Source: Fidelibacterota bacterium
GTDB taxonomy: Bacteria > Fidelibacterota > UBA2242
Direction: 5' to 3'
NCBI GenBank assembly: GCA_018002295.1
Contig: JAGNGI010000017.1
Span: forward strand, 1 to 33,755
Length of the DNA: 33,755 nucleotides
The notes beneath the pieces are model-generated. The model was not told where the DNA came from and did no database searches. It saw only the letters and a program-made list of their open reading frames with translations. Below are positions 4,042-29,833 of the stretch, piece after piece. Made by a program: the position numbers and the translations under genes. How positions within the stretch are numbered: position 1 is the first letter of the stretch; every line of letters begins with the position of its first letter.

Positions 4042-4136
4042 TTACAAATTATGTTAAAATATTTATTATTTAAAGTATAAATAAACAATATCATTTAGAA
4101 TGATAATTAAATTCAACAACATAAATACAAATTCAA

Positions 4137-6158: not shown

Positions 6159-8197
6159 AACGAGTATTTATGAGACTACACAAAAACACAAATGAACCAG
6201 ATTATCCAAATTCAATTCAACCCTCAAAAAAATTTTCTTTACGGTTAAAAACTATAAAATTACTTTCCTTTTCCTTCTTAATTTTATTCTGTGCCAGCAT
6301 GCATGCTATGGAGAAATATGAAATAAAAAGTCCTGATGCAAAAATTACAGCTAATTTCTGGCTTTTGCCTTCGGGCGAACCGGTTTATTCTGTTACTCAT
6401 TCAGGAGAACTTGTAATACTACCATCAAAACTTGGAATTGTAAGGAGTGATGAGGATTTTACTACAGCTTTAAAAATCGATTCGGTTTCAGTCGTAAAGT
6501 TAATATCGGATCAATACACTCTTCTGCATGGGAAAAGAGTAAATTGCAGTTATACGGGGAACAGACGAATTTTTTATCTTAGCAATGCAAATGAAAAGCC
6601 TATTGAAATAATATTTCAAATATCCAATGATGGCGTGGCTTTTAGATATCATTTTTCTGAAAAATCTGAGAAAAAAGTGAAAATATATAAAGAGCTTTCT
6701 TCCTACCATTTCAATCGTTCTACAAAGGCTTTTTTACAGCCGTGCGCTGATGCCCGTACAGGCTGGTGTTTTTCACAGCCTTCGTACGAAGAATTTTACA
6801 ATTTGGAAATCCCTGTAGGTACTTCTTCACCATATCAAGCAGGTTGGGTACTTCCAGCTCTATTTAATTACGGAAATTTCTGGATAAGTATTACGGAAAC
6901 AGCTGTCGATACTAATTATTGCGGATCTCGCTTAAGTCAATTTTCTCCCGATGGAGAATATTCTGTCCAATTTCCACAGCCACAGGAAGGCAGATCTTAT
7001 GAGCCGGTATTGCCTGAATCGACATTACCATGGTTTACTCCATGGCGTATTATTGCCATAACAAATAATTTAGCAGGATTGGTCGAGTCAACTCTGGAAA
7101 CAGACCTTGCAATTCCTTCAAAATATGATGTATCTGCCTGGCTAAAACCTGGTATTGCTTCATGGAGCTGGGTGATTCTTAAAGACGATTCAACTGAATA
7201 CTTTACCCAGAAACGATTTATTGACTTTGCTGCAAGTATGAATTGGCAATATTGCTTAATAGATGCCTATTGGGATAGGCAGATCGGATATGAAAAAATT
7301 AAAGAGCTTGCTGACTATGCCAGAACAAAAAATGTAAAAATTTTATTATGGTACAATTCAGCAGGCGACTGGAATACTACTCCATTAACACCTCGAGACA
7401 AGTTGCTTACAAGGAATTCCAGGAGAATAGAATTCCAAAAATTGAAAGATATGGGAATAAGTGGTATCAAGGTCGATTTCTTTGGTGGTGATGGCCAATC
7501 GATGATGAAATACTATATTGACATTTTGAAAGATGCTGCAGACTATAATCTTGCAGTAAACTTCCATGGAAGTACTTTTCCACGAAGCTGGTACAGAACT
7601 TACCCTAATTTGGTAAGCATGGAAGCAATACGAGGAGAGGAATACATTACTTTTACTCAGGAAGATGCAAATCATCAGCCTTCTCATTGTACTGTACTAC
7701 CATTTACCAGAAATCTTTTTGATCCTATGGATTTTACTCCAGTTAATTTTTCAGGGATTCCTAATATACAGCGTCGTACTACAAATGGCTTTGAAATAGC
7801 CTTATCCGTAATATTTACCTCTGGAATTCAGCATATTGCAGAAACTCCATCAGGAATGGCCAAACAACCAGATTTTGTAAAAGAATATATGAGCAGTTTA
7901 CCACAACATTGGGATGATGTGAAGTTTATCGATGGCTATCCTGGAAAATTTGTTGTGCTTGCGAGAAAGACAGGTGAAAAATGGTACATTGCAGGTATTA
8001 ATGGTGAAAATACAAAACGCACACTGACATTAAACATTCCTTTTATCAATAAAACTGCCAAAGGGATTCTTATTACAGATGCTGAAAATTCAAATGAACT
8101 GGTAAAAACCAATATCAGCCTTTCAAGTTCTTTTAATGTTACAATGAATCCAAATGGTGGATTTGTAATAGTAACTTTACCGTCACACAATAAATAA
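6155..8197 (+). CDS. GH97 alpha-glycosidase, retaining (alpha-galactosidase-like) type
   Basis: Exo-alpha-glycosidase of the SusB family. After an unusually long N-terminal region the hydrophobic signal (LKLLSFSFLILFCASMHA region) precedes the GH97 N-terminal beta domain (YEIKSPDAKI). The barrel has GIASWSWVILKDDS, IDAYWD and GIKVDFFGGDGQ. D441 in KVDFF and E496 in RGEEY are separated by 55 residues, the spacing I recall for nucleophile and acid/base in the retaining branch, whose characterised members are alpha-galactosidases; inverting SusB-type alpha-glucosidases lack that Asp. Activity on alpha-galactose is therefore inference. The ATG overlaps the GH51 stop. A second in-frame ATG at 6170 would shorten the n-region and may be the true start. 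Confidence 0.92.
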   Translation: MKRVFMRLHKNTNEPDYPNSIQPSKKFSLRLKTIKLLSFSFLILFCASMHAMEKYEIKSPDAKITANFWLLPSGEPVYSVTHSGELVILPSKLGIVRSDEDFTTALKIDSVSVVKLISDQYTLLHGKRVNCSYTGNRRIFYLSNANEKPIEIIFQISNDGVAFRYHFSEKSEKKVKIYKELSSYHFNRSTKAFLQPCADARTGWCFSQPSYEEFYNLEIPVGTSSPYQAGWVLPALFNYGNFWISITETAVDTNYCGSRLSQFSPDGEYSVQFPQPQEGRSYEPVLPESTLPWFTPWRIIAITNNLAGLVESTLETDLAIPSKYDVSAWLKPGIASWSWVILKDDSTEYFTQKRFIDFAASMNWQYCLIDAYWDRQIGYEKIKELADYARTKNVKILLWYNSAGDWNTTPLTPRDKLLTRNSRRIEFQKLKDMGISGIKVDFFGGDGQSMMKYYIDILKDAADYNLAVNFHGSTFPRSWYRTYPNLVSMEAIRGEEYITFTQEDANHQPSHCTVLPFTRNLFDPMDFTPVNFSGIPNIQRRTTNGFEIALSVIFTSGIQHIAETPSGMAKQPDFVKEYMSSLPQHWDDVKFIDGYPGKFVVLARKTGEKWYIAGINGENTKRTLTLNIPFINKTAKGILITDAENSNELVKTNISLSSSFNVTMNPNGGFVIVTLPSHNK

Positions 8198-8234
8198 TCA
8201 TTGAGATTGTTTCATTAAGATTGTTGAAGTTTAT

Positions 8235-8306
8235 ATGAAAACATTACGAAAAACAGTAACCCTTACTATGATAATAATATTTTCTATTCCTATATTTGGT
8301 GAATAA
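8235..8306 (+). other. Orphan signal-peptide mini-ORF, possible gene remnant
   Basis: A 23-codon frame starting with ATG encodes a positively charged start (MKTLRKTV) followed by a hydrophobic core and FGE, then stops. It looks like a Sec signal peptide without a mature protein. It lies in the 163-base gap between the GH97 and GH43 genes. The simplest reading is the front end of a deleted secreted-protein gene. A chance small ORF or a short leader peptide cannot be excluded. Confidence 0.35.
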
Positions 8307-8360
8307 GCTGTAATTAGTAGAAGATGAACCACAAAACAAAAATTTATAAATGGTCAATCT

Positions 8361-9707
8361 ATGAAAAATCGAAAGCTATATTTATTTCTTGTCTGCTTAA
8401 TTGTTACAATAACAAATGATGTAGTAGCACAAAATCCTATTATTCGTAATCAATTTACAGCCGATCCTTCTGCTCGGGTCTTCAATGATAAAGTATATTT
8501 ATATCCATCCCATGATATACCGCCTGAAAATGGGAGATGTAGAGACAATTGGTTTTGTATGGAAGATTATCATGTGTTTTCTTCTGAGAATCTTACTGAA
8601 TGGACTGATCATGGGATTATCGTAAGTCAGAATAAAGTTCCTTGGGTGGATTCTACATCCTACAGTATGTGGGCGCCTGATTGTATTGAAAAAAATGGGA
8701 AGTATTACTTCTATTTTCCTGCTCGAACTAAAGATACAAGTTTTGGTCGTGGATTTGCTATCGGTGTTGCAATTGCGGAATACCCAGAAGGTCCGTTTAT
8801 ACCACAACCCGAACCAATTAGAAATGTCCATGGTGTTGATCCTAATGTGTTTATTGATAAAGATGGTCAAGCATATTTGTATTGGTCAATGGGAAATATT
8901 TATGGGGCAAAATTAAAAGAGAACATGATTGAGCTTGCTTCTGAACCACAAATGATAAAAGGTTTGCCAGAAAAAGGACTTAAGGAAGGACCTTATTTAT
9001 TCCGAAGAAATGGCATTTACTATATGACGTATCCTCACGTTCAGACAACCATCGAAAGACTTGAATATGCGATGGGTACCAATCCAATGGGGCCTTTTAA
9101 GTATACAGGAGTGATAATGGATGAATCTCCTTCAGGTTGTTGGACTAATCACCATTCAATTATCGAGTTTAAAAATCAATGGTATCTTTTCTACCATCAT
9201 AATGATTTATCTCCACAATTTGATAAGAATAGATCCGTTAGAATTGACAGCTTATTCTTTCAGGAGGATGGTACTATTCAAAAAGTAAGTCCAACATTAC
9301 GAGGAGTTGGAATGACTGCTGCATCTCAAAGGATTCAGATTGATAGGTATAGTGATATAAGCAAAGAAGGTGCATCAATAGCTTTCAACGATTCCCTTAA
9401 TACGTTCGAAGGGTGGAAAGCAATGCTCGATCGTAAAGACGCGTGGATAAAATATAATAGTGTTGATTTTGGAAATAAGAAATTTACATCAGTGATAGTA
9501 AAAGCTTATTCAGAACATGGCGGTACTGTACAAATAAGATTGAATAGTGTAGCGGGTCCCATTGTTGCGGAGGTGAAAATTCCTGAAGGGAATAAATGGA
9601 ATATTATTACTGCACCTATATCCAAGCTGAAATCTGGTGTTCAAAATCTCGTTGTCATCTTAGAAGATAATAATCGAGTCGAAATAGACTGGATTAGCTT
9701 TGAATAG
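8361..9707 (+). CDS. GH43 arabinofuranosidase/xylosidase with C-terminal CBM6
   Basis: Predicted secreted arabinoxylan-active exo-enzyme. The signal peptide ends VVAQ, and the mature part starts NPIIRNQFTADPSARV. The triad is D35 (TADPSARV), D160 (HGVDPNVFID) and E209 (LKEGPYLFRRNGIYYMTYP), with SMWAPDCIEKNGKYYFYFPA as a typical blade motif. From about residue 340 a CBM6-like beta-sandwich follows (SVDFGNKKF, NLVVILEDNNRVEIDWISFE), matching the architecture of XynD-type arabinoxylan arabinofuranohydrolases. There is no ribosome-binding motif ahead of the ATG. The next GH43 gene begins after a 21-base gap. Substrate is inferred from family architecture and neighbours. Confidence 0.9.
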   Translation: MKNRKLYLFLVCLIVTITNDVVAQNPIIRNQFTADPSARVFNDKVYLYPSHDIPPENGRCRDNWFCMEDYHVFSSENLTEWTDHGIIVSQNKVPWVDSTSYSMWAPDCIEKNGKYYFYFPARTKDTSFGRGFAIGVAIAEYPEGPFIPQPEPIRNVHGVDPNVFIDKDGQAYLYWSMGNIYGAKLKENMIELASEPQMIKGLPEKGLKEGPYLFRRNGIYYMTYPHVQTTIERLEYAMGTNPMGPFKYTGVIMDESPSGCWTNHHSIIEFKNQWYLFYHHNDLSPQFDKNRSVRIDSLFFQEDGTIQKVSPTLRGVGMTAASQRIQIDRYSDISKEGASIAFNDSLNTFEGWKAMLDRKDAWIKYNSVDFGNKKFTSVIVKAYSEHGGTVQIRLNSVAGPIVAEVKIPEGNKWNIITAPISKLKSGVQNLVVILEDNNRVEIDWISFE

Positions 9708-9728
9708 CGTTCTTAGGAGAATATAATT

Positions 9729-10862
9729 TTGAGTTTTAAGTTGATCTCATTTTGGAATTTATTATTTTTTTCAACTTCCCTTTTTGCGCAGGTAAATCCA
9801 AATAATAGTACCTCATACAAAGGCGCTGCTACACGAAGTTTTTGTTATACCAACCCGATAACGAGAGATACTGCTATAGCTATGCGGGATCATTGCATTA
9901 TTAAGGTAGGCAGTAAATGGTATTGTACCGGAACCTCGATGCCATTTTGGACTGGACCAAATCCTGGTGTAAGATTATTGGTATCAGATGATCTTGTAAA
10001 TTGGAGACACCATTCGTGGCTTATTGATGCTAGTAAACTGCCCCCAGAATGTCCTTATAACGGACGATTCTGGGCGCCCGAGATTCACTACATTCAAAAT
10101 AAATACTGGCTAATGGTGAACAGCGGAAAAGTTACTGAAGATGATCCGAAGGGAATGAAAACCCATAGTATATGGTTGTTTTCATCTGACGAAGTTACAG
10201 GACCTTATAAACTCGTCAACGGTCCTTTAACACCTCGATATAATAACGATGCAACTTTATTCGAAGATAATGACGGGCAGACTTATCTTTACTGCAGTGG
10301 AGACGGACTTTTTCAGGCAAAAATAGATCTATCGACAGGTAAGCTTATTGGAAACATTCAGAAGTTTCTTGATAAAAGATCGCCTGGTAATCCAGATTGG
10401 GTGATCGGAGGCATCGAAGGTCCTTTCGTAGTAAAAAGGGATGGCATTTATTTTATGTTTTTTTCTTCATGGACTCGTGGGTATGAAGTTGGTTTGCTAA
10501 AATCGAAAAGTCCGCTCGGACCATGGGAACTAGCTTCGCGCGAACCGATCTTCGGCACTCGTAAAAAAGGTTATCGTTATGAACTTGCCCTTAGCGGCGG
10601 TTATTCAGATTTGAAATTCAATGACAGTGAAGATCCATATTGTGAAACTGGACATAATGCTTTATTTGAAGGACCGGATGGCAAATTGTGGAGTTCTTGT
10701 CATTACATTATGTACGATAAACGTCCTTATCCGTACTGTCCAACTCTCAAAGATTGGGAGCAAACCCCTCAATTAGGGATTGAACCTGTGTACTTTGTTC
10801 ATGGAATGTTTTATATCAATGGTCCTACATGGACTGAACAATGTATTGAGTATTCAAAATAG
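9729..10862 (+). CDS. GH43-like five-bladed propeller glycosidase, TTG start
   Basis: Secreted GH43-type exo-glycosidase; substrate unknown, probably arabinose or xylose side groups by context. The start is TTG at 9729, supported by AGGAGA at 9715-9720 (8-base spacing) and by the signal peptide that follows, ending SLFAQ. Candidate triad: D54 (MRDHCIIKVGSKWY), D174 (NNDATLFEDNDGQTYLY) and E230 (GGIEGPFVVKRDGIYFMFF). The base motif is R-D-H rather than the usual P-D-P, so this is a divergent branch. FWAPEIHYIQNKYWLMV is a typical propeller blade motif. The protein is a single catalytic domain of 377 residues with no accessory module. It ends 49 bases before the second GH51. Confidence 0.85.
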   Translation: MSFKLISFWNLLFFSTSLFAQVNPNNSTSYKGAATRSFCYTNPITRDTAIAMRDHCIIKVGSKWYCTGTSMPFWTGPNPGVRLLVSDDLVNWRHHSWLIDASKLPPECPYNGRFWAPEIHYIQNKYWLMVNSGKVTEDDPKGMKTHSIWLFSSDEVTGPYKLVNGPLTPRYNNDATLFEDNDGQTYLYCSGDGLFQAKIDLSTGKLIGNIQKFLDKRSPGNPDWVIGGIEGPFVVKRDGIYFMFFSSWTRGYEVGLLKSKSPLGPWELASREPIFGTRKKGYRYELALSGGYSDLKFNDSEDPYCETGHNALFEGPDGKLWSSCHYIMYDKRPYPYCPTLKDWEQTPQLGIEPVYFVHGMFYINGPTWTEQCIEYSK

Positions 10863-10911
10863 AGAATAAATATCTTTAATCAATAACTAATCACCATTAA
10901 GGAAATGTATC

Positions 10912-12450
10912 ATGAAAAAACTATTTTTTCTTTTATGCACACTTATTCCACTATCAACATTCGCTCAGACGGCAAAAATTAAAATTGATACTGATAGAAC
11001 AATAGGAGAAATCGATCCTAAAATCTATGGTGTCTTTATGGAACCAATTCAATTTAGTGGCAAGAGGATGGGATTACCAGACACTGCAAGCTTCAACACT
11101 ATGTATGGAAATTTATATGATCCAGCTTCACCTCTCGCAGATGAGAATGGATTCAGAAAAGATTATATCGAAGCAATGAGAGAGTTGAAAATCACCAATA
11201 TGCGTTGGCCTGGTGGAAATTACGTAATGGCATACAACTGGCAGGATGGCGTCGGACCTAAGAATCAGAGACCTTCTCGTATCAATCTTGCATGGAGTGG
11301 AATTGACAATAATCATGTAGGCACAGATGAGTGGATAGCTTTGAATAAATCCATTGGCAGTGAAAATGTAATATGCGTAAATCTCGGACTTGCCACAATA
11401 CAAGATGCTTGCTACTGGGTTGAATATTGTAATTTTCCAAAAGGAACCTACTACTCGAATTTGCGTGCAAAAAATGGACATTCCATACCTTACAATGTTA
11501 AAATATGGGATCTCGGAAACGAAGTTGATGGAGAGCCATGGGAATTAGGCCATAAAAATGCTGATGATTATGTAAAGATTGCAAGAGAAGCAGCAAAAGC
11601 AATGAGATCAGTTGATAAAAGTATCAAATTAGTCGCTTCTGGATCGTCTTATTACGAAAGTACAGGCAAATGGGTGGAATGGAATAGAAAAGTACTTGAA
11701 GGTCTCGGCGATATGGTAGATTATATTTCAATTCATCGCTACTGGGAAAATTCGCCAGATTATTATACCTATATGGGACAAAGTGCAGTAGATTTTGAAG
11801 AGAAAATATGCGTAACCGCTGCTACTATAGAAGCAGTGAGGACTATGAAAAATTATACAAATCCTGTTTATATCTCTTTTGATGAATGGGGTATAATGTC
11901 TAGAAATTTCCTGACAGTACTTCCAATAGCACAAAGCTTCAACTCTTTTATTCGCCATGCTGATATTGTTAAAATGACCAATTTTACTATGCTTACCTCA
12001 CTATTGAGTACGGATAAAGATAAAGGAAGCTATAAAACCCCCTTATTTTATACATTCAAATTGTTCTCGAACAATTGCTATGGCAATTCCATTGATACTT
12101 ATGTGCAGTGCGATACCTTTAATACTGAAAAGTATAAAGGCATCCCTTATCTCGATGTATCAACCGTGTACAATAATGAAACAAAAACTGTATTTATTAA
12201 TGTTGTGAACCGACACAAAGAAAAATCTATTGTAACTCAAATTAGAAGTATATCAGGCATTTTTACTGGGAAAGCTGAAGCTAGTGTATTAAACTGTGAG
12301 TCGCTCGATGCGCCTTTCACGTTCGATAAGCAAGAGCAATACAAACCAATAATAAAAGAAATCAAAGTGGAAGAGAATAATATTTCATATTCATTTCCGC
12401 CCCATTCATTTACACAAATCAAAGTCGCTGTAAAAAAAGTTGCAGAGTAG
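10912..12450 (+). CDS. GH51 alpha-L-arabinofuranosidase (short form, secreted)
   Basis: Retaining alpha-L-arabinofuranosidase for arabinose decorations. The short signal peptide ends STFAQ. The domain starts with IDPKIYGVFMEPI, then ITNMRWPGGNYVMAYNWQDGVGP, a hallmark of GH51. Acid/base is E204 in WDLGNEVDGEPW; nucleophile is E325 in SFDEWG. The C-terminal beta domain ends YSFPPHSFTQIKV. At 512 residues it matches the standard GH51 length and lacks the inserted binding domain of the 673-residue copy at 4137. AAGGA lies just upstream of the ATG. The two copies probably differ in preferred linkage or chain length, but that is inference. Confidence 0.95.
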   Translation: MKKLFFLLCTLIPLSTFAQTAKIKIDTDRTIGEIDPKIYGVFMEPIQFSGKRMGLPDTASFNTMYGNLYDPASPLADENGFRKDYIEAMRELKITNMRWPGGNYVMAYNWQDGVGPKNQRPSRINLAWSGIDNNHVGTDEWIALNKSIGSENVICVNLGLATIQDACYWVEYCNFPKGTYYSNLRAKNGHSIPYNVKIWDLGNEVDGEPWELGHKNADDYVKIAREAAKAMRSVDKSIKLVASGSSYYESTGKWVEWNRKVLEGLGDMVDYISIHRYWENSPDYYTYMGQSAVDFEEKICVTAATIEAVRTMKNYTNPVYISFDEWGIMSRNFLTVLPIAQSFNSFIRHADIVKMTNFTMLTSLLSTDKDKGSYKTPLFYTFKLFSNNCYGNSIDTYVQCDTFNTEKYKGIPYLDVSTVYNNETKTVFINVVNRHKEKSIVTQIRSISGIFTGKAEASVLNCESLDAPFTFDKQEQYKPIIKEIKVEENNISYSFPPHSFTQIKVAVKKVAE

Positions 12451-12485
12451 ATTCGATATAAAAACATAATAATAGGAGATAAACT

Positions 12486-13676
12486 ATGAAACAAATTTCA
12501 ATTTTTATTTTTTCTCTAATGATCTGTACCAATTGTTTCGGTCAGCAATACTCAAAAAGCTGGAAAGATCTGGATTATGGTGGTGATGAAAAGGTATATC
12601 ATAAAATGGATATTTATTTACCTCAAACTGAAAAACCAACTTATCCAGTTGTAGTTGTAATTTACGGTAGCGCATGGTTTAGTAATAACTTAAAAGAAAC
12701 AGTTCTTTCCTCTTTGGGCAAACCGCTTCTTGATGCAGGTTTTGCTATTGTAACGCCAAATCATCGTTCGAGTACGGATGCGAAATTCCCTGCACAAATA
12801 AATGATATTAAAGCTGTTATAAGATTTATAAGAGCTAATGCGGCAAAATATCAAATTGACACTTCGTTTATTGGCATTACGGGATTTTCATCTGGTGGAC
12901 ATCTGGCTTCTTTGGCTGGCACATCTGGAGGAGTTAAGCAATATACCATTGGCTCGGTAACTTTTGACATTGAAAGTAATGTAGGTCAGGACACTTCCTT
13001 TAGTAGTTCAGTCAATGCTGTTGTGGATTGGTTCGGACCTATTGATATATCGGTGATGGATTCTTGTAAAAGAAGTAAAGACATTAATTCTCCCGAAGCT
13101 ATTTTAATTGGTGGACCAATTGAGGAAAATCTCGATAAATGTGCACTTGCGAATCCTATCACCTACATTGACACAAACGATCCACCTTTTCTTATCCTTC
13201 ATGGTGATGCAGATCCATTAGTTCCTCTCTGCCAGAGTGAATTATTTTTTAATGCATTGCAAAAAGCTAATGTGCCAGGTCAATTTGTTATAGTGCCTGG
13301 TGGTCAGCATGGGCCAGGCTTATTTGATGAGAAATATTATAAAATGATGACGGATTTTTTCTTGAGGGAAGCTAATATAACTGCGGTCACTCATGAGGTT
13401 CATAATAGTCCACTAAACGTTTCAGTTTCTCAAAATTATCCCAATCCATTTAATCCAGTCACAGCTATAACATTTGTTTTGCCTGCAAAATTATTTGTAA
13501 CCCTAGTCATTTATGATTCTCTAGGTCGGGAAGTGTCGAAGCTTGTTTACGAAGAGTTACCCGCCGGAACATATACACGAGAATGGAACGCAGAAGGACT
13601 TTCGAGCGGAACTTATTTTGCTCGTTTGCAAGCCGGATCGTATATCGAAACGAAGAAGATTATTTTAGTGAAGTGA
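12486..13676 (+). CDS. Alpha/beta-hydrolase carbohydrate esterase with T9SS type A sorting domain
   Basis: Probable deacylase (acetyl- or feruloyl-type) acting on hemicellulose outside the cell. A signal peptide (ending NCFGQ) precedes an alpha/beta hydrolase of the BD-FAE/lipase-like type: HKMDIYLPQ, then nucleophile S135 in GFSSGGH, D243 in HGDADPLVP and H275 in GGQHGPG. From about residue 310 the protein carries NYPNPFNPVTAITF, LGREVSKLV and GLSSGTYFARL, the classical type IX sorting domain (FlgD-like beta-sandwich) used for outer-membrane export and surface anchoring. It is the only product in this island with that tail. AGGAG lies 10 bases before the ATG. Acyl specificity cannot be read from sequence. 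Confidence 0.9.
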   Translation: MKQISIFIFSLMICTNCFGQQYSKSWKDLDYGGDEKVYHKMDIYLPQTEKPTYPVVVVIYGSAWFSNNLKETVLSSLGKPLLDAGFAIVTPNHRSSTDAKFPAQINDIKAVIRFIRANAAKYQIDTSFIGITGFSSGGHLASLAGTSGGVKQYTIGSVTFDIESNVGQDTSFSSSVNAVVDWFGPIDISVMDSCKRSKDINSPEAILIGGPIEENLDKCALANPITYIDTNDPPFLILHGDADPLVPLCQSELFFNALQKANVPGQFVIVPGGQHGPGLFDEKYYKMMTDFFLREANITAVTHEVHNSPLNVSVSQNYPNPFNPVTAITFVLPAKLFVTLVIYDSLGREVSKLVYEELPAGTYTREWNAEGLSSGTYFARLQAGSYIETKKIILVK

Positions 13677-13713
13677 GGAACATTCAAATATATTTTTATG
13701 ATGAGGTAAAAAA

Positions 13714-14130
13714 ATTTACAAAAGAATAGTACCTTTAGTATTGCTTATTGTAATGACTTGTGCTTGTCTTGCACAGAACAATTATTTGTATAGGAATTCA
13801 AAACCAGCTTCAACAAATATTCCTGGAGCTGAATTTCCGAGAGTAGATATACAATTGAGAGCTATCTTTCGAGTCGATGCTCCAAATACTCAAAAAGTTC
13901 AGCTTGATCTCTTAAACGTATATGATATGGTAAAAGGAGAAGAAGGAGTCTGGACAGTGACAACTAAACCATTACCGCCGGGATTCCATTATTACTATTT
14001 AACGATGGATGGTTTTCGTTTTTCGGATCCTTCGAGCGAGTCATTTTTTGGTGTGGGGAAAAAGATGAGCAGAACTAAGATATTGGTACCCGACCAAAAT
14101 TTTTATTCCCCAATATTGAGCAATAACTAA
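13714..14130 (+). pseudogene. Truncated CE1-type feruloyl/acetyl esterase: N-terminal E-set domain only
   Basis: The encoded ~138 residues consist of a signal peptide (KRIVPLVLLIVMTCACLAQ) and a single beta-sandwich E-set domain: FPRVDIQLRAIFRV, YDMVKGEEGVWTVTT, PGFHYYYLTMDGF, DPSSESFFGVG. This domain normally sits in front of the catalytic domain of CE1 esterases. The frame stops right where that esterase domain should begin, and GH67 starts 15 bases later. GAGG at 13703-13706 is well spaced for a start at 13714, but that codon is ATT; the lysine/arginine n-region begins there, so ATG has probably mutated to ATT. TTG at 13741 is an alternative start but leaves a signal without basic residues. 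Likely a decayed gene; a functional stand-alone domain is possible. Confidence 0.65.
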
Positions 14131-14145
14131 CAAAAGGAATCTCAA

Positions 14146-16236
14146 ATGAAAAATATATCCTGCAAAATCGAAGTAACAATTGGCTTATTAATTCTATTGT
14201 TGGTCCCTTTTTCTCTCAATGCAGAAAATGGGCACGACCTCTGGTTACGCGGCAAAAGCATAGCTCAGATAAATGTAATTTGTTCCGAAAAATCACCGAC
14301 ACTTCAAATTGCAAAACAGGAATTGCAGCAGTGTTGGCAAGGAGAATCAAATGCTACAATATCACTCGTAATTAAAAATGATAAAGCTATTAAAGGCGAT
14401 GGCTTTAGAATTAGTGATAATAAAATTCAAGCCAAAACTGAGTTAGGAATTTTATATGGAGTTTATGAATTATTGCGTCGTCAGCAAACAGGTAGACCAA
14501 TATGTGAAGAAGTTTGCAATCCCTCATACGAACGACGGCTATTAAATCATTGGGACAATCTTGATGGTACTATTGAACGTGGTTATGCTGGGCATTCCAT
14601 ATTCTGGAGGAAAGGAAAAGATGCTTTTGAAGTCACTGAAACCGATAAGCAATTATGGCAGGAATATGCACGAGCCAATGCATCCATAGGAATAAACGGA
14701 ACTGTTCTTAATAACGTAAATGCTTCGCCCTCGGTTTTATCAACTGATTATCTTAAAAGAGTCAAAGCTATCGCCGATATTCTTCGACCGTATGGAATCA
14801 AGACATATCTTTCCGTCAATTTTGCTTCCCCGGCTGTACTTGGAAAATTAAAAACTTCAGATCCATTGGATCCCGAAGTTATAAAATGGTGGAAAGTCAA
14901 AGTTCAAGAAATTTATAGTCTGATCCCAGATTTTGGAGGTTTTTTGGTTAAAGCGAATAGTGAAGGTCAACCAGGACCACAAGATTTTGGTCGTACGCAT
15001 GCGGATGGAGCCAATATGATTGCCGATGCACTTCGTCCTTTTGGTGGCATTGTCATGTGGCGAGCCTTTGTGTATAATCCTTCAAGTGAAGATAGAGCGA
15101 AACAAGCGTATCTGGAATTTATGCCATTCGATGGCCGGTTTCGCGACAATGTTATTATTCAGGTAAAAAATGGACCGGTTGATTTTCAACCTCGAGAACC
15201 ATTCAGTCCACTTTTTGGTGGAATGAAAAAAACTTCTGTCATGCCAGAACTTCAAATCACTCAGGAGTATCTTGGGCAATCAGTTCATCTGGTATTTCTT
15301 GCAACCATGTGGGAGGAATTTTTACAAAGCGATACTTATCAAGAAGGCCAGAAAAGTACAGTAGCTCGTTGCACCGATGGAAGCATCTTTCCACAAAAAC
15401 ATACTGCAATCGCAGGAGTATCGAATATTGGATTAGATACAAATTGGTGTGGTCATCTTTTTGCACAGTCTAACTGGTACGCTTTTGGTCGTTTAGCATG
15501 GAACAATTACTTAACAAGTGAACAAATTGCCGATGAGTGGGTAAAACTGACTTTTGGGCAAAGTGCTGAGAAAAAGGATGAAGTTAGTTCAATAACGTTT
15601 GCCGATTGGAACATAAATTTTTTGCAACCTGTAAAACAAATGATGCTTAACAGTCGTGAAGCTGCTGTTAATTATATGATGCCACTGGGATTACATCATA
15701 TTTTTGCTGCAGATCATCATTATGGACCAGGTCCATGGTGGGCACCTGCAGGAGTACGGAAAGATTGGACGCCACCATATTACCATCAAGCCGATTCACT
15801 TGGCATTGGCTTCAATCGGACAGAAACAGGAAGCGATGCCGTAAGCCAGTACCACGAGCCACTCCAATCAATATTTTCCGATCCTAAAACCTGTCCTGAC
15901 ATTTATTTATTATGGTTTCATCATTTACCATGGAATTATATTATGAAAAGTGGGCGCACTCTATGGAATGAACTATGCTACCATTACGACGAAGGAGTGA
16001 ATCAGGTATGCGAATTTCAAAAAACGTGGGATAAAGTTCAACCTTACATAGATACAGAACGATTTATTCATGTTCAGAATAAACTTCGTGAACAGTGCGT
16101 AAACGCTCAGGTATGGAAAGATGCCTGCTTGCTTTATTTCCAGCAATTTAATGGACTGCCAATACCTTATGACATTGAACGTCCCATTCATAATCTAGAA
16201 GATTTGATAAAAAGTGATATGCAGAAGTATCCTTGA
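14146..16236 (+). CDS. aguA: GH67 alpha-glucuronidase
   Basis: Inverting alpha-1,2-glucuronidase removing (4-O-methyl-)glucuronic acid from the end of xylo-oligosaccharides. The signal peptide ends SLNAE. A small N-terminal alpha/beta domain leads into a large barrel with LLNHWDNLDGTIERGYAG. The likely general acid is E273 in KANSEGQPGP. The base pair is D346 (GPVDFQPREP) and E374 (QITQEYLG), whose 28-residue spacing matches the D364/E392 pair known in the Geobacillus enzyme. The helical C-terminal domain has HHLPWNYIMKSGRTLWNELCYHYDEGV. Length 696 is normal for the family. AAGGA lies ahead of the ATG. GH67 ties this island to glucuronoxylan, because the family acts on xylo-oligomers. Confidence 0.97.
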   Translation: MKNISCKIEVTIGLLILLLVPFSLNAENGHDLWLRGKSIAQINVICSEKSPTLQIAKQELQQCWQGESNATISLVIKNDKAIKGDGFRISDNKIQAKTELGILYGVYELLRRQQTGRPICEEVCNPSYERRLLNHWDNLDGTIERGYAGHSIFWRKGKDAFEVTETDKQLWQEYARANASIGINGTVLNNVNASPSVLSTDYLKRVKAIADILRPYGIKTYLSVNFASPAVLGKLKTSDPLDPEVIKWWKVKVQEIYSLIPDFGGFLVKANSEGQPGPQDFGRTHADGANMIADALRPFGGIVMWRAFVYNPSSEDRAKQAYLEFMPFDGRFRDNVIIQVKNGPVDFQPREPFSPLFGGMKKTSVMPELQITQEYLGQSVHLVFLATMWEEFLQSDTYQEGQKSTVARCTDGSIFPQKHTAIAGVSNIGLDTNWCGHLFAQSNWYAFGRLAWNNYLTSEQIADEWVKLTFGQSAEKKDEVSSITFADWNINFLQPVKQMMLNSREAAVNYMMPLGLHHIFAADHHYGPGPWWAPAGVRKDWTPPYYHQADSLGIGFNRTETGSDAVSQYHEPLQSIFSDPKTCPDIYLLWFHHLPWNYIMKSGRTLWNELCYHYDEGVNQVCEFQKTWDKVQPYIDTERFIHVQNKLREQCVNAQVWKDACLLYFQQFNGLPIPYDIERPIHNLEDLIKSDMQKYP

Positions 16237-16279
16237 ATCAGCAATAAGGATATTTTAAAACTCAACGGAAGAATTATTA

Positions 16280-17860
16280 ATGATAAAATCTAAAAATTTC
16301 ATCGCTTGTGCTTTTAGTTTATTGCTTGTAATAACGATATTATTGACGAATTTACAAGCCCAAAAGTGCCAAAAATATCACAGTGATAATGGGGATGGAA
16401 CTTTTACTAATCCAGTTATCCCGGCCGATTTTCCCGATCCTGATGTGATTAGAGTAGGCGATACCTATTATATGGTTACAACCACAATGTTTATTTTTCC
16501 GGGAGTAACCATTTTAAAATCAAAAGACCTTGTAAATTGGGAATATTGTTGCAATGCCGTTCCTCGTTTCGATTTCAGTCCTTGTTACAATCTTGATGGA
16601 TGTAACAGGTACGGTCATGGTCAATGGGCAACAAGTATGCGATATCATAATGGGACTTTCTACCTACTTTTTATTACTCTCGATGAAGGGGGATTCCTTT
16701 GTTCAGCAAAAAAAGCAGAAGGTCCGTGGGAAATAAAACAATTGCCGAAAGGATTTTATGACCCAGGATTATTTTTCGATGACGATGGAAGAATTTATGT
16801 AGCGTATGGCTATGGGAAAATTTATCTAACGGAGCTCGATCAAAATTTTGCGCCTATTAGCCAAGATTCTTTGATTTACACCGGAGACTTACGAAGTGGA
16901 CTTGAAGGTACTCATGTATATAAAATCAATGATTATTACTATTTGTATTGTACCTATGGCGGTGTTGATGGCATTCAAGTAACATTGCGTTCGCAGAATA
17001 TTTACGGACCTTACGAACAAAAGGTGGCAATTAGAGATACAATGCCCGGAGTAACGTATGGAGTTCATCAGGGAGCACTTATTCAAACCCAAGCTGGCGA
17101 ATGGTGGACTATGCTTTTTGTGGATAGCGGTCCCTTTGGCCGTTTTCCATCTTTACAGCCTGTAACCTGGGTTGATGGTTGGCCTATAGTTGGAGTTGAT
17201 GGGAAAGGCGTTGTTACCTATAGAAAACCTGATGTTGGCAAACAGCATCCGATAAAAGCATTGCCAACATCTGACGAATTCAAGGATAAAATATTAGGAA
17301 TGCAATGGGGTTGGAATCACAATCCAGACGACAGCAGGTGGTCACTGACGCAGAGGCCGGGTTATTTGAGATTAGTAACTGGCAAAGTGGTTGCTAGTTT
17401 GCCTGAAGCTCGGAATATGCTTACTCAACGTATATTTGCTTGCTATGATCAAACTATACCAACGATTGGCATCACTAAAATGGAAGTTGGAAAAATGAAA
17501 GATGGAGATGTTGCTGGACTGGCTGTCTTTCAGAAGCCCTATGCCTTCATTGCGGTCAAACAGGAAAATGGTATTAGGAAATTGATTATGGTAAACAACG
17601 GCGAAACTATTGCCGGAGCACCAATGAAAGGTGAGACAGTATTTTTACGCGCTATCGCATCAAATAGGACTAAAAAAGCATGCTTTGAATACAGTTATGA
17701 TAATATAGAATTTATCCAGCTTGGTAACGAATTATTAATGGAATTCAGTCTTAAGATATTTACTGGAAATAAGTTCGGACTTTTTAATTATGCAACCAAG
17801 GAATCTGGCGGATATGTTGATTTTGATTGGTTCAGAACCGCTATGGGATTGTCCAATTAA
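16280..17860 (+). CDS. GH43 beta-xylosidase/alpha-L-arabinofuranosidase, paralogue of the 2419 gene
   Basis: Exo-acting xylosidase or arabinofuranosidase with signal peptide (ending NLQAQ). The canonical GH43 triad is complete: D53 in FPDPDVIRVGDTYY, D161 in FYDPGLFFDDDGR and E209 in GLEGTHVYKINDYYYLY. The C-terminal concanavalin-like domain (NHNPDDSRWS, GYLRLVTG, GGYVDFDWFR) aligns motif by motif with the protein at 2419-4041, marking a duplication. GGAAG lies 9 bases before the ATG. It is the last gene of the island; 196 bases of non-coding sequence separate it from the convergent RNase G gene. Subfamily-12-like placement is by motif similarity only. Confidence 0.93.
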   Translation: MIKSKNFIACAFSLLLVITILLTNLQAQKCQKYHSDNGDGTFTNPVIPADFPDPDVIRVGDTYYMVTTTMFIFPGVTILKSKDLVNWEYCCNAVPRFDFSPCYNLDGCNRYGHGQWATSMRYHNGTFYLLFITLDEGGFLCSAKKAEGPWEIKQLPKGFYDPGLFFDDDGRIYVAYGYGKIYLTELDQNFAPISQDSLIYTGDLRSGLEGTHVYKINDYYYLYCTYGGVDGIQVTLRSQNIYGPYEQKVAIRDTMPGVTYGVHQGALIQTQAGEWWTMLFVDSGPFGRFPSLQPVTWVDGWPIVGVDGKGVVTYRKPDVGKQHPIKALPTSDEFKDKILGMQWGWNHNPDDSRWSLTQRPGYLRLVTGKVVASLPEARNMLTQRIFACYDQTIPTIGITKMEVGKMKDGDVAGLAVFQKPYAFIAVKQENGIRKLIMVNNGETIAGAPMKGETVFLRAIASNRTKKACFEYSYDNIEFIQLGNELLMEFSLKIFTGNKFGLFNYATKESGGYVDFDWFRTAMGLSN

Positions 17861-24822: not shown

Positions 24823-25518
24823 ATGACTAAACAACATCTCGCGAAGGACAAAATTACTCAATTGCTTGATCGTAGCCTTGATTACAAGGAAGAATCAACA
24901 GCGTTTGAACATTGGCGGACCTGTCCGGACTGCCAGGCTAAAATACGAACAGCAATTGATTGCGCCCCACCTTGGCTATATAATCTCCCCAATCATACTA
25001 ATCTCTGGGCGATTCCAGTTTCAGCCCGCTGGCAATTCTGGATAATCGGTTCGAAGGAAGTTGTGCTATCTTTAACGTTTTCAGAAAAAGCGCATCGCCG
25101 ACAAATTGAATTACTGAGAAAGCAAGGCTTGGAACTTGCGCGTTCGCCTGCGCCGATTTTCCTGACCAATACGGCTGAAATGATCTATGATTTTTTGGAA
25201 ACCGGTCAGCCTTATAAAGTTACGGCTCTTAATTTCTGTCTCGTTTCCACAGCTTTTGCTCGCCAGGTTTTGACTTGGACCGGCTTGGTGCCGTTCGGCA
25301 AAACTACCAGTTACGGCCGGATAGCTGAATGGATCGGTCGCCCACTCGCCGCCCGGAGTGTTGGCGGCGCCTTGCATTCCAATCCGCTAGGATTAGTTAT
25401 TCCCTGTCATCGAGTCCTCGGTATCAATGGTGCATTAGTTGGATTTGGCGGCGGATTAGAGATGAAGCAAAAATTGCTTGAACTTGAGGGTATCTACCCA
25501 AAAATGCAAACTGGATAA
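24823..25518 (+). CDS. ogt: O6-alkylguanine-DNA alkyltransferase with N-terminal zinc-finger-like domain
   Basis: Suicidal DNA repair protein that transfers the alkyl group of O6-alkylguanine to its own cysteine. The C-terminal half has the full family signature: FGKTTSYGRIAEWIG, ARSVGGALHSNP, acceptor Cys195 in IPCHRVLG, and GFGGGLEMKQKLLELEG. Residues about 55-135 correspond to the family's N-terminal RNase-H-like domain. The first ~45 residues are unusual: they carry H30-x3-C34-x2-C37 (EHWRTCPDCQAKI) preceded by an amphipathic helix, which resembles the zinc-binding anti-sigma (ZF-HC2) fold. The next gene starts 5 bases after the stop, so it probably heads a three-gene operon. Repair function is confident; the zinc-finger role is inference. 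Confidence 0.92.
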   Translation: MTKQHLAKDKITQLLDRSLDYKEESTAFEHWRTCPDCQAKIRTAIDCAPPWLYNLPNHTNLWAIPVSARWQFWIIGSKEVVLSLTFSEKAHRRQIELLRKQGLELARSPAPIFLTNTAEMIYDFLETGQPYKVTALNFCLVSTAFARQVLTWTGLVPFGKTTSYGRIAEWIGRPLAARSVGGALHSNPLGLVIPCHRVLGINGALVGFGGGLEMKQKLLELEGIYPKMQTG

Positions 25519-25523
25519 TTTAA

Positions 25524-27839
25524 ATGAGCCGTTATTTTAAGACAGCCTTTTCTAAGTATACGTTCTGGTATTTTTTCAATAATAAAAAACTTTTGTCTGT
25601 GATTCTGTTATTGAACCTTTGGCTAAGTCCAATGTTGATACCGATTGAAGCCGCCGAATTATCATTACAAGGTAATTGGCTTTTTCAGCTGGGCGACGAC
25701 TCGACCTGGTCAGCTCCCAGTTCGAACGATTCGAACTGGTTGCCTATTCGCGTTCCGGATTACTGGGAAAAGCAAGGCTTTGAAGATTATGACGGCTTTG
25801 CTTGGTATCGTTATCACTTTCAGGCTGATTCGGCTTTATTGCGGCAGGATTCGCTGATTCTTTATCTGGGAAAAATTGATGCCGCCAACGAAACTTTTCT
25901 CAATGGCGTCTGCATCGGACGTAGCGGAGCCTTCCCACCGGAATCGCTTTCTACTAAAAATAACGTCCGCCAATATGTATTTCCTGCCCATTTATTAAAG
26001 CCTGATAACTTGCTGGCGGTTCGTGTTTACGATGAAGGTGAAAAGGGCGGAATATATAGCGGTCCGTTGAAAATCGTGACGCTCGAAAAATCCAAAAGCC
26101 CTTCACCGTCAGGAAAGGTACTTCAAAATTCGATTAATATTATTCCTTTCACCAACGGGATAGCATCTTGTTGTTATAATTTGAAAACGCGGACATTCAC
26201 CAATTTTCAGCCTCATATTTATCGCAAATTTGATGAAAAAAGTGAGACGCCGAACCTTATCAGCCAGGCGAAAGTCGTCCTCTTTCGGAATCAGGAGGAA
26301 ATACCGCTAACTAATTTAGTGACACTCGAGGTCGGCTACTTGGAGGGTACTGGAATCGTTCGGCATATTCTGGGTGGTGATGGTTATAAGCTGACTATTT
26401 TTGGTTATTGTCCTTTCAATTTAAATAAGCCCTTTTGGGTGTTCTATGCTCTTTTAGAAGGTGAAAAGATTGATGATCTCAGTCTTAATTTTATCTACGC
26501 TTCTGAAAATCTCGATCTAGACATTGGCAAGTGGGCTTATCAGGAGAGTAACAGCAAATGGCTGACCGTTTATATTTTCTATAATCCTAATCCTTCTGCC
26601 GACGACGCCGACCAACTTTTCTTGAGGAAATATAAGAACGAACATCCCGGCTGGCAGGCTTTGATCGAAGAAATTGACTGGTGGCAAAAGTGGCAAGCCC
26701 AGACTTTATTGCCCGAAAATATTCAAGAGGATGCTCGGAAGGTTTATTTGCAATCGCTGGCGGTATTGAAAATGGCTCAATGCCGTGAGCCCTTCCCGGC
26801 AGGCGGTCAAATCATTGCCAGCCTGCCGCCCTCTACTCAGAATTACTGTCGGTCAAGAGATCAAGCCTTCGCAGTCGAAGCTCTTTTGCTATCCGGACAT
26901 AGTGAGGAAGCCCGCTTAGCCCTCCAGTTTATCATGAACAGTCGTTGTGGACGTTATAAAATTTACCAGAAGAAAGACCAAAACCAGGGGATTGGAGTAG
27001 ATTATGCCGTCTCAGTTTATCGCTATCTAGGCAATGGCACGGAGGAGAGCGTTAGCGATGAAAATGGACTGACTATTCATCTTGATAATTTCGGACTGAT
27101 GATCTGGAATATATATCGTTATGTTGAGGTTACGGAAGACCTCAAATTTCTGAAATATTACTGGCCAAAAATCTCGCGCAACCTGGCTGATGTTTTGCCG
27201 ACTTTAATTGACGTTAGCGGTCTGGTGCGCGCCGAGCCGGGTCCCTGGGAAAAATCTCTGCCTTACAAGCATTATACTTATACCTCAGCCTGCACCTATC
27301 GCGGCTTATTGGATGCCGCCCGTCTGGCGCGTCAAATGAATGACGAAAATCGCGCCCAATATTACGAAGAGACAGCCATTAACCTGCGAATTAATATTGA
27401 AAAAAAGTTGACCGATTCCCAATTAAAAGCTTTAAAGGGTAATCTCGAAGATTCCGATCCCAACTTGTATGCTGACGCTTCGAGTGTCGAAGCATTGAAC
27501 TGGATTTTCAATCCCCAGGATCAAATTACACGAAACACACTGGAACTTTTTAAGAATTACCTAACTCTGGCGAATGCCCAACGAGGCTATTGCCGAACCA
27601 GGCAACAATTAATTACAAATAGTCAAGAATGGGTTTTTGGTGATTTGCGGATCATTTCAGCCGCTCGGAAGGCTACTCGTTTCGAGGAAGCCGCTAACCT
27701 GGAAGCTTGGGTTACTCGCCAGGCTTTGAATAACTTCGGATTGCTTCCGCAATATTTTCATATTCGCAGTGCCGACTATCTCGGCGCCGTACCTCGCTGT
27801 GGTCTTGGTGCCGGAGCCTATATCATTAATTTCTGGTGA
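25524..27839 (+). CDS. Secreted GH15-like (alpha/alpha)6 glycosidase with GH2-type jelly roll
   Basis: Exported glycan hydrolase of unknown substrate. A long basic n-region leads to a hydrophobic segment at about 23-42 and a likely signal cleavage after IEAA. Residues about 45-180 form a GH2-type sugar-binding jelly roll (LQGNWLFQLGDDSTWSAP, GFAWYRYHF, ILYLGKIDAANETFLNGVCIG). A middle beta region follows. Residues about 400-765 resemble a glucoamylase-type helical barrel: GGQIIASLPPSTQNYCRSRDQAFAVEALLLSG in particular matches the GH15 entry motif, and EPGPWEKS may hold a catalytic Glu. The combination of GH2-like and GH15-like parts is uncommon. Its last codon overlaps the GTG of the next gene, implying coupling. 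Catalytic pair not securely identified. Confidence 0.75.
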   Translation: MSRYFKTAFSKYTFWYFFNNKKLLSVILLLNLWLSPMLIPIEAAELSLQGNWLFQLGDDSTWSAPSSNDSNWLPIRVPDYWEKQGFEDYDGFAWYRYHFQADSALLRQDSLILYLGKIDAANETFLNGVCIGRSGAFPPESLSTKNNVRQYVFPAHLLKPDNLLAVRVYDEGEKGGIYSGPLKIVTLEKSKSPSPSGKVLQNSINIIPFTNGIASCCYNLKTRTFTNFQPHIYRKFDEKSETPNLISQAKVVLFRNQEEIPLTNLVTLEVGYLEGTGIVRHILGGDGYKLTIFGYCPFNLNKPFWVFYALLEGEKIDDLSLNFIYASENLDLDIGKWAYQESNSKWLTVYIFYNPNPSADDADQLFLRKYKNEHPGWQALIEEIDWWQKWQAQTLLPENIQEDARKVYLQSLAVLKMAQCREPFPAGGQIIASLPPSTQNYCRSRDQAFAVEALLLSGHSEEARLALQFIMNSRCGRYKIYQKKDQNQGIGVDYAVSVYRYLGNGTEESVSDENGLTIHLDNFGLMIWNIYRYVEVTEDLKFLKYYWPKISRNLADVLPTLIDVSGLVRAEPGPWEKSLPYKHYTYTSACTYRGLLDAARLARQMNDENRAQYYEETAINLRINIEKKLTDSQLKALKGNLEDSDPNLYADASSVEALNWIFNPQDQITRNTLELFKNYLTLANAQRGYCRTRQQLITNSQEWVFGDLRIISAARKATRFEEAANLEAWVTRQALNNFGLLPQYFHIRSADYLGAVPRCGLGAGAYIINFW

Positions 27840-29833
27840 AAATGATCAACTACCGACTTGGATCCAGAATAATATCCGTAATTTTTTTATTAATATTTTA
27901 CCGGACTTGTTCGAAGCATCCTTTTACGCCGGAGATTCGGGAGATTCTCGTTCACCAAAACCGACGCACTCTGGAAAAGGTAGCCGATCAATACTTGAAT
28001 TCGCCCTCAGCTGAAACTCGTTATCGGCTTTGTTTGGCTATTGCTAATTGTCGGGATACATTGCTGGTTACTCAGCTCACTACTTTGTTAGATGATCAGT
28101 CGCCAACAGTGCGGACTGGAGCGGCTTTTGCCCTTGGTCAACTTGCTAGCCAAACTGCCGAAAGTCTGCTGGTTCAGCACTTGTCCAGCGAAACTGACGC
28201 CGAAGTGCGTCAGCAAACTGTTTTGGCACTTGCCCAAATTGGCGACCTCTCGACTTTGAATTTTTTGCTCGAAACACATCCAGAATTAATCGGACAGGCT
28301 TTGATTTATTTTTTTCAACGCCAAATTTATAATTCAGCCAGCTTGAATTATGCCGTTTCCCGTTTACAAAGTAATCAGCATTACGAATCTTATCAGGCGG
28401 CTTCAACTCTGAGTCGGGTGCAAAATCGAGCTATAATGCAGGAATACGCCGGGGCACTCCAAACGGCACTGCAAACCGCTGACCGAGACATTAAGATAAA
28501 ATTGGTGGCTGGCCTGGCGCCCTTGAATTTTTCCGGCAAGGTGGAAATCTGGACGCAATTATTGACCGATAGTGTTCCGGAAGTTCGTCTTGAAGCCGCA
28601 CGAAACATTCGCATTGTCGCTCACGATCCGCTAATTTTACATCAAGTTTTCAATGATTACTTTCCACAGGTAGTAGCAACGGCTATTGAGAACTTGCCCG
28701 ATTCATTGGAATTGACCCCAATTCTTCAAAGTGACTTCCGGGTTTTGGCGCATCACCCGTCAAGGGCAGTACGGAGTGCCTTGGTAAAATTTCTGAGTCA
28801 ATGCGGTGGTCAAGAGACACTGGCGAATTTTGGCCTCTGGCCAGTTGAGACCAATTTGCTACCGGCATTTGCCGAAGGCATTGCCGCCTCAGGCCAAATA
28901 TCTGGGCTTGCGGTTCTTGATAGCCTCTCCCGGCATCAATTTCGAGCAATATCTACCCCTGCCTATCTCGGTTTGATCAATTTGGCTGAGCAATTTTGCC
29001 GACAGGATAGCATCCCCTGCGAACAATTCTGTAATTATATTGCGGCTGGTTTAAAAAGTGACGATCCGGTGAAGATCGCCGTCGCCGCCGAATCTATGCG
29101 TGACTCTACCACAAAATGCGAAAATTTAGTGCCTTTGCTCTATCCTCCTCTGAAAAAATTCAAAAATGCCGAGTACGCTGACGCTGTTATCGAAATATTA
29201 AAAACGATAGCCGTTAGACACCCGCCAGATGCTGTGCCATTCATCCGGCTATTGTTGAACGCTCGCGATTTTCGCATTAGAGATTTGGCATATCAAATTT
29301 TACGAGAAACTTATGAAGCCAATGTGCCAGAAATAATCAATGATTACCGAGGTGCCGGGCGACCTTCAAATTTAAAAATGTTGAAAAAATATGGACTGCG
29401 CCCGACGATCTTGCTCGAAACCGAATGCGGTAATATCATCATCCGCTTAGATGGATATTATGCGCCGTTTACTACTGATGCTTTTCTATCCGCCATTGAG
29501 AGAGGTTTTTACAATGGATTGAATTTTCACCGGGTTGTGCCCAATTTCGTTGTACAGGGCGGTGATCCACGTGGCGACGGTTGGGGTGGTCCGGGTTATA
29601 CGCTTTTAACTGAACGATCGCCGATTGAATTTAATTGCGGAGCTGTGGGAATGGCGCGGACAGAATATGACACCGAAGGTTCACAGTTTTTTATTACTCT
29701 GACTGATCAGCCGCAATTGAATTACCAATACACGCGATTTGGAGAGGTCATTTGTGGAATGGATGTGGTCAAGCGCCTTGAAGCAGGCGACCGTATTCTG
29801 GCAATCTCCGTTGTCACAATGGATGAACGTTGA
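27836..29833 (+). CDS. HEAT-repeat protein fused to cyclophilin-type peptidyl-prolyl isomerase
   Basis: Predicted envelope-targeted prolyl isomerase. A hydrophobic N-terminus (IISVIFLLIFYRTC) followed by Ser may be a signal or an atypical lipobox. Residues about 60-500 are HEAT-like helical pairs, clearest at SPTVRTGAAFALGQLASQ, DAEVRQQTVLALAQIGD and VPEVRLEAARNI. Residues about 520-665 are a cyclophilin domain: TECGNIIIRLDG, FHRVVPNFVVQGGDPRGDGWGG, GAVGMARTEYDTEGSQFFITL. The catalytic-type Arg of FHRVVP is present. The start is GTG at 27836, overlapping the upstream stop (GTGA); ATG at 27842 is the alternative. Coupling with the secreted glycosidase suggests a folding or maturation role in the periplasm, which is inference. 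Confidence 0.88.
   Translation: MKMINYRLGSRIISVIFLLIFYRTCSKHPFTPEIREILVHQNRRTLEKVADQYLNSPSAETRYRLCLAIANCRDTLLVTQLTTLLDDQSPTVRTGAAFALGQLASQTAESLLVQHLSSETDAEVRQQTVLALAQIGDLSTLNFLLETHPELIGQALIYFFQRQIYNSASLNYAVSRLQSNQHYESYQAASTLSRVQNRAIMQEYAGALQTALQTADRDIKIKLVAGLAPLNFSGKVEIWTQLLTDSVPEVRLEAARNIRIVAHDPLILHQVFNDYFPQVVATAIENLPDSLELTPILQSDFRVLAHHPSRAVRSALVKFLSQCGGQETLANFGLWPVETNLLPAFAEGIAASGQISGLAVLDSLSRHQFRAISTPAYLGLINLAEQFCRQDSIPCEQFCNYIAAGLKSDDPVKIAVAAESMRDSTTKCENLVPLLYPPLKKFKNAEYADAVIEILKTIAVRHPPDAVPFIRLLLNARDFRIRDLAYQILRETYEANVPEIINDYRGAGRPSNLKMLKKYGLRPTILLETECGNIIIRLDGYYAPFTTDAFLSAIERGFYNGLNFHRVVPNFVVQGGDPRGDGWGGPGYTLLTERSPIEFNCGAVGMARTEYDTEGSQFFITLTDQPQLNYQYTRFGEVICGMDVVKRLEAGDRILAISVVTMDER

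Follow-up and report, generated by a model that had tools for sequence, protein, structure and literature searches.

The window, i.e. the whole stretch of 33,755 nucleotides that was analysed, contains at positions 24823..25518 of the plus strand a gene with an ATG start, represented by full-length orthologues in other genomes, that encodes a protein of 231 amino acids in which a zinc module precedes an alkyltransferase. Residues 1-46 (24823..24960) were assigned by profile comparison to a ZAS/zf-HC2-type zinc module, presumably of three helices, with the probable zinc ligands His5 (24835..24837), His30 (24910..24912), Cys34 (24922..24924) and Cys37 (24931..24933). A short linker (residues 47-61, 24961..25005), delimited by the points at which alignments to plain Ogt proteins start, leads to a divergent Ogt N-terminal domain (residues 62-143, 25006..25251), across which the plain Ogts of the phylum align, and then to the Ogt/MGMT catalytic and DNA-binding domain (residues 144-224, 25252..25494), which is recognised by PF01035 and carries the alkyl acceptor Cys195 of PCHRV (25405..25407). 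Two genes follow on the same strand, one for a GH15-like protein (25524..27839), with relatives in 17 of 20 neighbourhoods, and one for a protein with HEAT repeats and a cyclophilin domain (27836..29833), with relatives in 15 of 20. A sequence-only reading of this DNA had reported H30-x3-C34-x2-C37 and PCHRV within the first of these open reading frames, and both motifs are present.

The same reading had placed a complete Ogt/MGMT behind the unusual N-terminus, and this was borne out. PF01035 matched the protein with 96.8 bits (E=6.5e-28, Pfam; cut-off 27) and TIGR00589 with 92.4 bits (NCBIfam; cut-off 46.4), and residues 126-223 were matched by solved Ogt/MGMT structures. The PCHR acceptor motif, the tyrosine, the arginine finger, the asparagine hinge and the glutamate of Ogt/MGMT proteins were all found and, in an alignment of orthologues, Y164, N187, P194, H196, R197 and E222 were identical in 20 of 20 rows and R178 and C195 in 19 of 20. 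Since these residues are conserved, alkyltransferase activity is expected, and the fusion protein is apparently a working guanine-dealkylating repair enzyme. PF02870, the Ogt N-terminal domain, gave no Pfam match in the protein, and most plain Ogts of the phylum aligned to a profile of the fusion only from about model position 51-72 onward. The one row deviating at C195 comes from genome G020 (L114), where PCHR is replaced by PRHR, with codon CGT for TGT, and all four zinc ligands are kept. With this codon, the G020 protein may have lost the acceptor and be a derivative of the alkyltransferase-like kind, or the assembly may be in error. Genomes G008 and G002 also encode short alkyltransferase-like proteins (L167 and L168; 105 and 111 amino acids) with PWHRV, which are typical ATLs.

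Conservation of H30, C34 and C37 among orthologues had been set beforehand as a test of the zinc site. All three residues were invariant in the 20 aligned orthologues, which come from four families of one order of uncultured bacteria and go down to 24% identity with the window protein (24-35% in the deep divergence). In addition, a fourth conserved residue, H5, which the sequence-only reading did not contain and which is the probable fourth ligand, was invariant in 18 of 18 rows; the two rows without it end at contig ends. In a 12-row alignment, H5, H30, C34 and C37 were the sole invariant positions of the first 127 residues. The H-x3-C-x2-C motif is not a chance occurrence, since 62,481 residues of other open reading frames of at least 150 amino acids from the same loci contain no case of it. 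In eight close pairs, dN/dS of the N-terminal stretch was 0.09-0.50, which indicates purifying selection. Zinc is therefore probably held by H5, H30, C34 and C37 in the N-terminal module. That the module is a product of chance or a vestige without a role of its own would agree with the fact that no function can be assigned to it directly; however, four ligands that remain invariant across 24-35% identity and purifying selection on the module make this highly improbable.

The arrangement H5-x24-H30-x3-C34-x2-C37 follows the ligand pattern of ZAS domains, H/C-x24/25-H-x3-C-x2-C (PMC6432622), and its spacing is exactly that of RslA, whose zinc ligands in the crystal structure are His25, His50, Cys54 and Cys57 (PMC2877774), His5 being the equivalent of His25 by spacing. 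In RsiW, the residues of the zinc motif are C3, H30, C34 and C37 (PMC5358783). A peptide of 46 residues, designed after helices 1-3 of ChrR, folds alone on zinc (PMC6432622), and residues 1-46 of the fusion have about the same length. When the module was compared by hhalign with ECF-linked ZAS domains of the same genomes, probabilities of 91% and 87% were obtained. Shuffling of all columns gave a mean score of 9.3 and a maximum of 15.6 versus 31.6 for the real alignment; when HWxxCxxC was kept and the rest was shuffled, the mean was 26.1 and 2 of 60 shuffles reached the real score. The profile similarity thus sits mostly in this motif, and the spacing of H5 is the main independent support. The proposal that the N-terminus is of the ZAS/zf-HC2 type consequently holds for the ligand pattern and the profile comparison and falls short for the single sequence: the suggested HMM search did return zf-HC2, at 13.9 bits versus a gathering cut-off of 22.2. 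This family was listed for only 1 of 15 members at E values up to 1, a match of the window protein to the RsrA family (E=0.013) and one of an orthologue to the ChrR family (E=0.0056) lay below the curated cut-offs, and neither Pfam nor NCBIfam gave a match to the N-terminal module that exceeded them. A structure model from the single sequence placed helices at residues 4-17, 25-33 and 35-46 with pLDDT below 50 and, at a mean pLDDT of 35, is uninformative on the fold. A three-helix fold can be inferred for the module, and the short helix that had been noticed ahead of H30 is plausible.

Each of the 15 other genomes of this family that were searched contained an orthologue, truncated at a contig end in two cases, and further ones came from three more families of the order (G017, G018, G020 and G021); the search for homologues with both parts that had been proposed was in this way answered positively, with 20 aligned orthologues from four families of one order. 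The N-terminal module was confined, among the matches listed from 245 genomes of the phylum, to the order of the window organism, and the matches listed from elsewhere in the phylum for the fusion profile started in or after the linker or crossed stop codons. When 41 genomes were scanned with a profile of just the module, only fusion proteins were retrieved, with the exception of a contig-end fragment in G012 and of a protein in G004 (G004:C2, E=0.001) that was already a zf-HC2 match. The sole match of the window protein in a named genome collection was a plain MGMT from an uncultured Bacilli MAG; in 392 genomes of the phylum of this unrelated MAG, no fusion was seen among the matches listed. 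A plasmid candidate was rejected: of two high-coverage records, the one examined was a plain MGMT beside an AlkA-type gene without the fusion, and four MGMT matches in viral contigs were all confined to the catalytic domain. The absence of the fusion elsewhere applies to the genomes searched, in collections that represent a part of all bacteria. In a tree built from the MGMT part, the 20 fused rows all fell into one group (support 93/89), and 92% of the bootstrap trees need one change, a result consistent with a single origin; the fusion probably arose once. Two f2 genomes had no MGMT match and G016 had a plain MGMT; losses or a replacement within the order are therefore possible.

The sequence-only reading knew of no standard MGMT with such an N-terminus. 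The architecture was likewise not found in an alkyltransferase review that was searched for fusions, and literature searches, including one for zf-HC2 together with methylguanine, revealed no ZAS-MGMT fusion in titles or abstracts. Judged from its sequence, the protein is a new domain architecture assembled from two known families, ZAS and Ogt/MGMT. With Ogt/MGMT (AGT) proteins it shares the complete catalytic and DNA-binding domain with PCHRV, arginine finger, tyrosine, asparagine hinge and glutamate, while it differs by the additional 46-residue zinc module and the divergent N-terminal Ogt domain. With RslA, ChrR, RsrA and RsiW it shares H-x24-H-x3-C-x2-C, with spacing identical to RslA, and the profile similarity to ECF-linked ZAS domains; unlike them, it is joined to a DNA-repair enzyme, has no sigma gene nearby and shows no evident canonical helix 4, and the second ligand is followed by tryptophan (HW) where ZAS domains usually have HL. 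In AGT-EndoV and other AGT fusions, an AGT is also joined to another functional domain, but the partner is an endonuclease or a histone-like domain and not a ZAS module.

A zinc domain ahead of an MGMT domain in one chain is also the layout of E. coli Ada, and zinc-bound thiolates are nucleophiles, so we considered that a thiolate of the module might accept a backbone methyl group from phosphotriesters and thereby switch the protein. Ada, however, combines a Cys4 site with an AraC-type HTH, whereas the fusion has an unrelated His2Cys2 motif without an AraC-type HTH. The Ada motifs CRPSC and PCKRC are absent from the protein, and Pfam detected no HTH regulator domain in it, in agreement with the earlier statement that the four-cysteine domain of Ada is unrelated. 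Neutral His2Cys2 zinc sites should moreover, from general chemistry, be far less nucleophilic than Cys4 sites, and we regard an Ada-like acceptor as very improbable.

The module is most closely related to ECF anti-sigma domains, and it had been suggested that the module tethers the repair protein to a sigma factor. As a damage-sensing anti-sigma factor, the module would bind region 4 of an ECF or housekeeping sigma factor, and alkylation of Cys195 would alter its grip, coupling damage to transcription. In RsiW, the three zinc-holding helices touch only sigma4 (PMC5358783), and a CHAT-domain protein in the PDB bears the same kind of domain, so that ZAS modules do exist on enzyme-like proteins. 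However, the 20 neighbourhoods showed no ECF gene next to the fusion; Pfam covered the genes of the window and clustering the other neighbours, and some contigs end near the gene. The proposed search for an ECF gene elsewhere in the genome did give matches: five ECF-like sigma genes were found in the genome of the window, which is 94% complete, but each already lies next to an anti-sigma candidate, four of which are of the ZAS type. The three zf-HC2 matches of this genome each adjoin an ECF gene. An 83-residue ZAS-type protein with HMEACPNC (L157, 1-348, minus strand) lies directly after an ECF gene; it is missing from the zf-HC2 matches and was read from the end of its contig. The protein beside the fifth ECF gene is small, not of the ZAS type and contains a hydrophobic stretch; it was taken as a candidate anti-sigma factor. 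A sixth match of the sigma search was rejected as ECF, being a LuxR-type response regulator. In addition, about 15 residues separate the predicted helix 3 from the Ogt domain in a low-confidence model of the window protein, a stretch that would hardly accommodate a canonical ZAS helix 4 ahead of the MGMT domain, while RsiW has a full fourth helix, and its helices 3 and 4 fill the sigma groove (PMC5358783). The lack of an ECF neighbour, the paired ECF genes and the short linker argue together against a dedicated sigma partner, and the surface of the module is variable; the tether is not supported, and a sigma-binding role appears unlikely. A housekeeping sigma factor or RNA polymerase as partner would be compatible with the neighbourhood evidence. 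The joint proposition that the protein is a previously undescribed alkylation-damage sensor, that it relays its suicide alkylation to transcription through a contact with sigma region 4 or RNA polymerase, and that it represents an independently evolved, sigma-based equivalent of Ada strikes us as quite improbable.

The zinc thiolates might also serve as an oxidation switch, in which their oxidation would unfold the module and change the repair enzyme in activity, turnover or location. An HHCC model peptide of ZAS domains unfolds after a fast reaction with singlet oxygen (at least 3.9e6 per M per s), yet its reaction with H2O2 is slow, at 0.030 per M per s (PMC6432622). RslA, with the same ligand set, loses zinc under oxidation, but ChrR (HHCC) was reported to be insensitive to oxidative stress except singlet oxygen, and RsiW with an oxidised zinc motif still holds its sigma factor (PMC5358783). 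The first ligand, furthermore, is a histidine here versus the sensing cysteine of RsrA. On balance, we consider this switch to be distinctly unlikely.

The explanation that we favour, with somewhat better than even confidence, is that the protein is a constitutive enzyme of suicide repair whose accessory module, folded on zinc, serves stability or docking, zinc binding and function both being predictions from sequence. The Ogt/MGMT part would act as a suicide O6-alkylguanine-DNA alkyltransferase that moves the alkyl group from guanine to Cys195. An ancestor within the order would have gained the N-terminal ZAS-type module, probably once, and one Zn2+ on His5, His30, Cys34 and Cys37 would staple its three short helices. 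The module would be a non-catalytic accessory domain that is packed onto the enzyme or anchors it to a partner which, if there is any, would be other than a dedicated ECF sigma factor. Besides the ligands, only a few core-type positions are fixed (E24, F28, W31) and the rest of the module varies freely, a pattern more in keeping with a structural or internal role than with a conserved contact surface; a docking partner that co-evolves fast would look the same as a purely internal role. Human AGT also has a zinc in its N-terminal part, bound by C5, C24, H29 and H85 and believed to be stabilising (alkyltransferase review), which provides a precedent for zinc as a stabiliser, although those ligands lie in the N-terminal domain of the AGT itself and those of the fusion in an added module.

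In the fusion, a zinc anti-sigma-type module is united with a suicide enzyme of DNA repair, and this union is conserved across the lineage. Should the module do no more than stabilise or dock the enzyme, ZAS domains would have been put to a new use beyond the control of sigma factors; should it contact the transcription machinery, there would be a second independent route, besides Ada, that links alkylation repair to gene expression. In either case, the protein offers a small test case for three-helix ZAS modules that lack the fourth helix.

The fusion gene, the GH15-like gene and the HEAT-repeat/cyclophilin gene form a block (24823-29833) that recurs across the family; in the window, a gap of 5 bases separates the first two genes and the last two overlap by 4 bases. 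Just upstream of the start of the fusion gene, a conserved stretch resembling GGYAATAAAAxCCRTTC...YGTATYTT was observed in nine genomes (G001, G002, G005, G007, G008, G010, G013, G014 and G015), with partial degeneration in G005 and G008. The YGTATYTT part stops only a few bases short of the ATG in several genomes, pointing to a leaderless or near-leaderless promoter. ATAAAAxCCRTTC was rejected as a regulon element, its other matches in the genomes appearing coding or scattered. Elsewhere in the window, positions 2419-17860 hold a cluster for xylan/arabinoxylan utilisation, with several GH43 proteins, GH67, alpha-L-arabinofuranosidases and a BD-FAE (feruloyl-esterase-like) protein.
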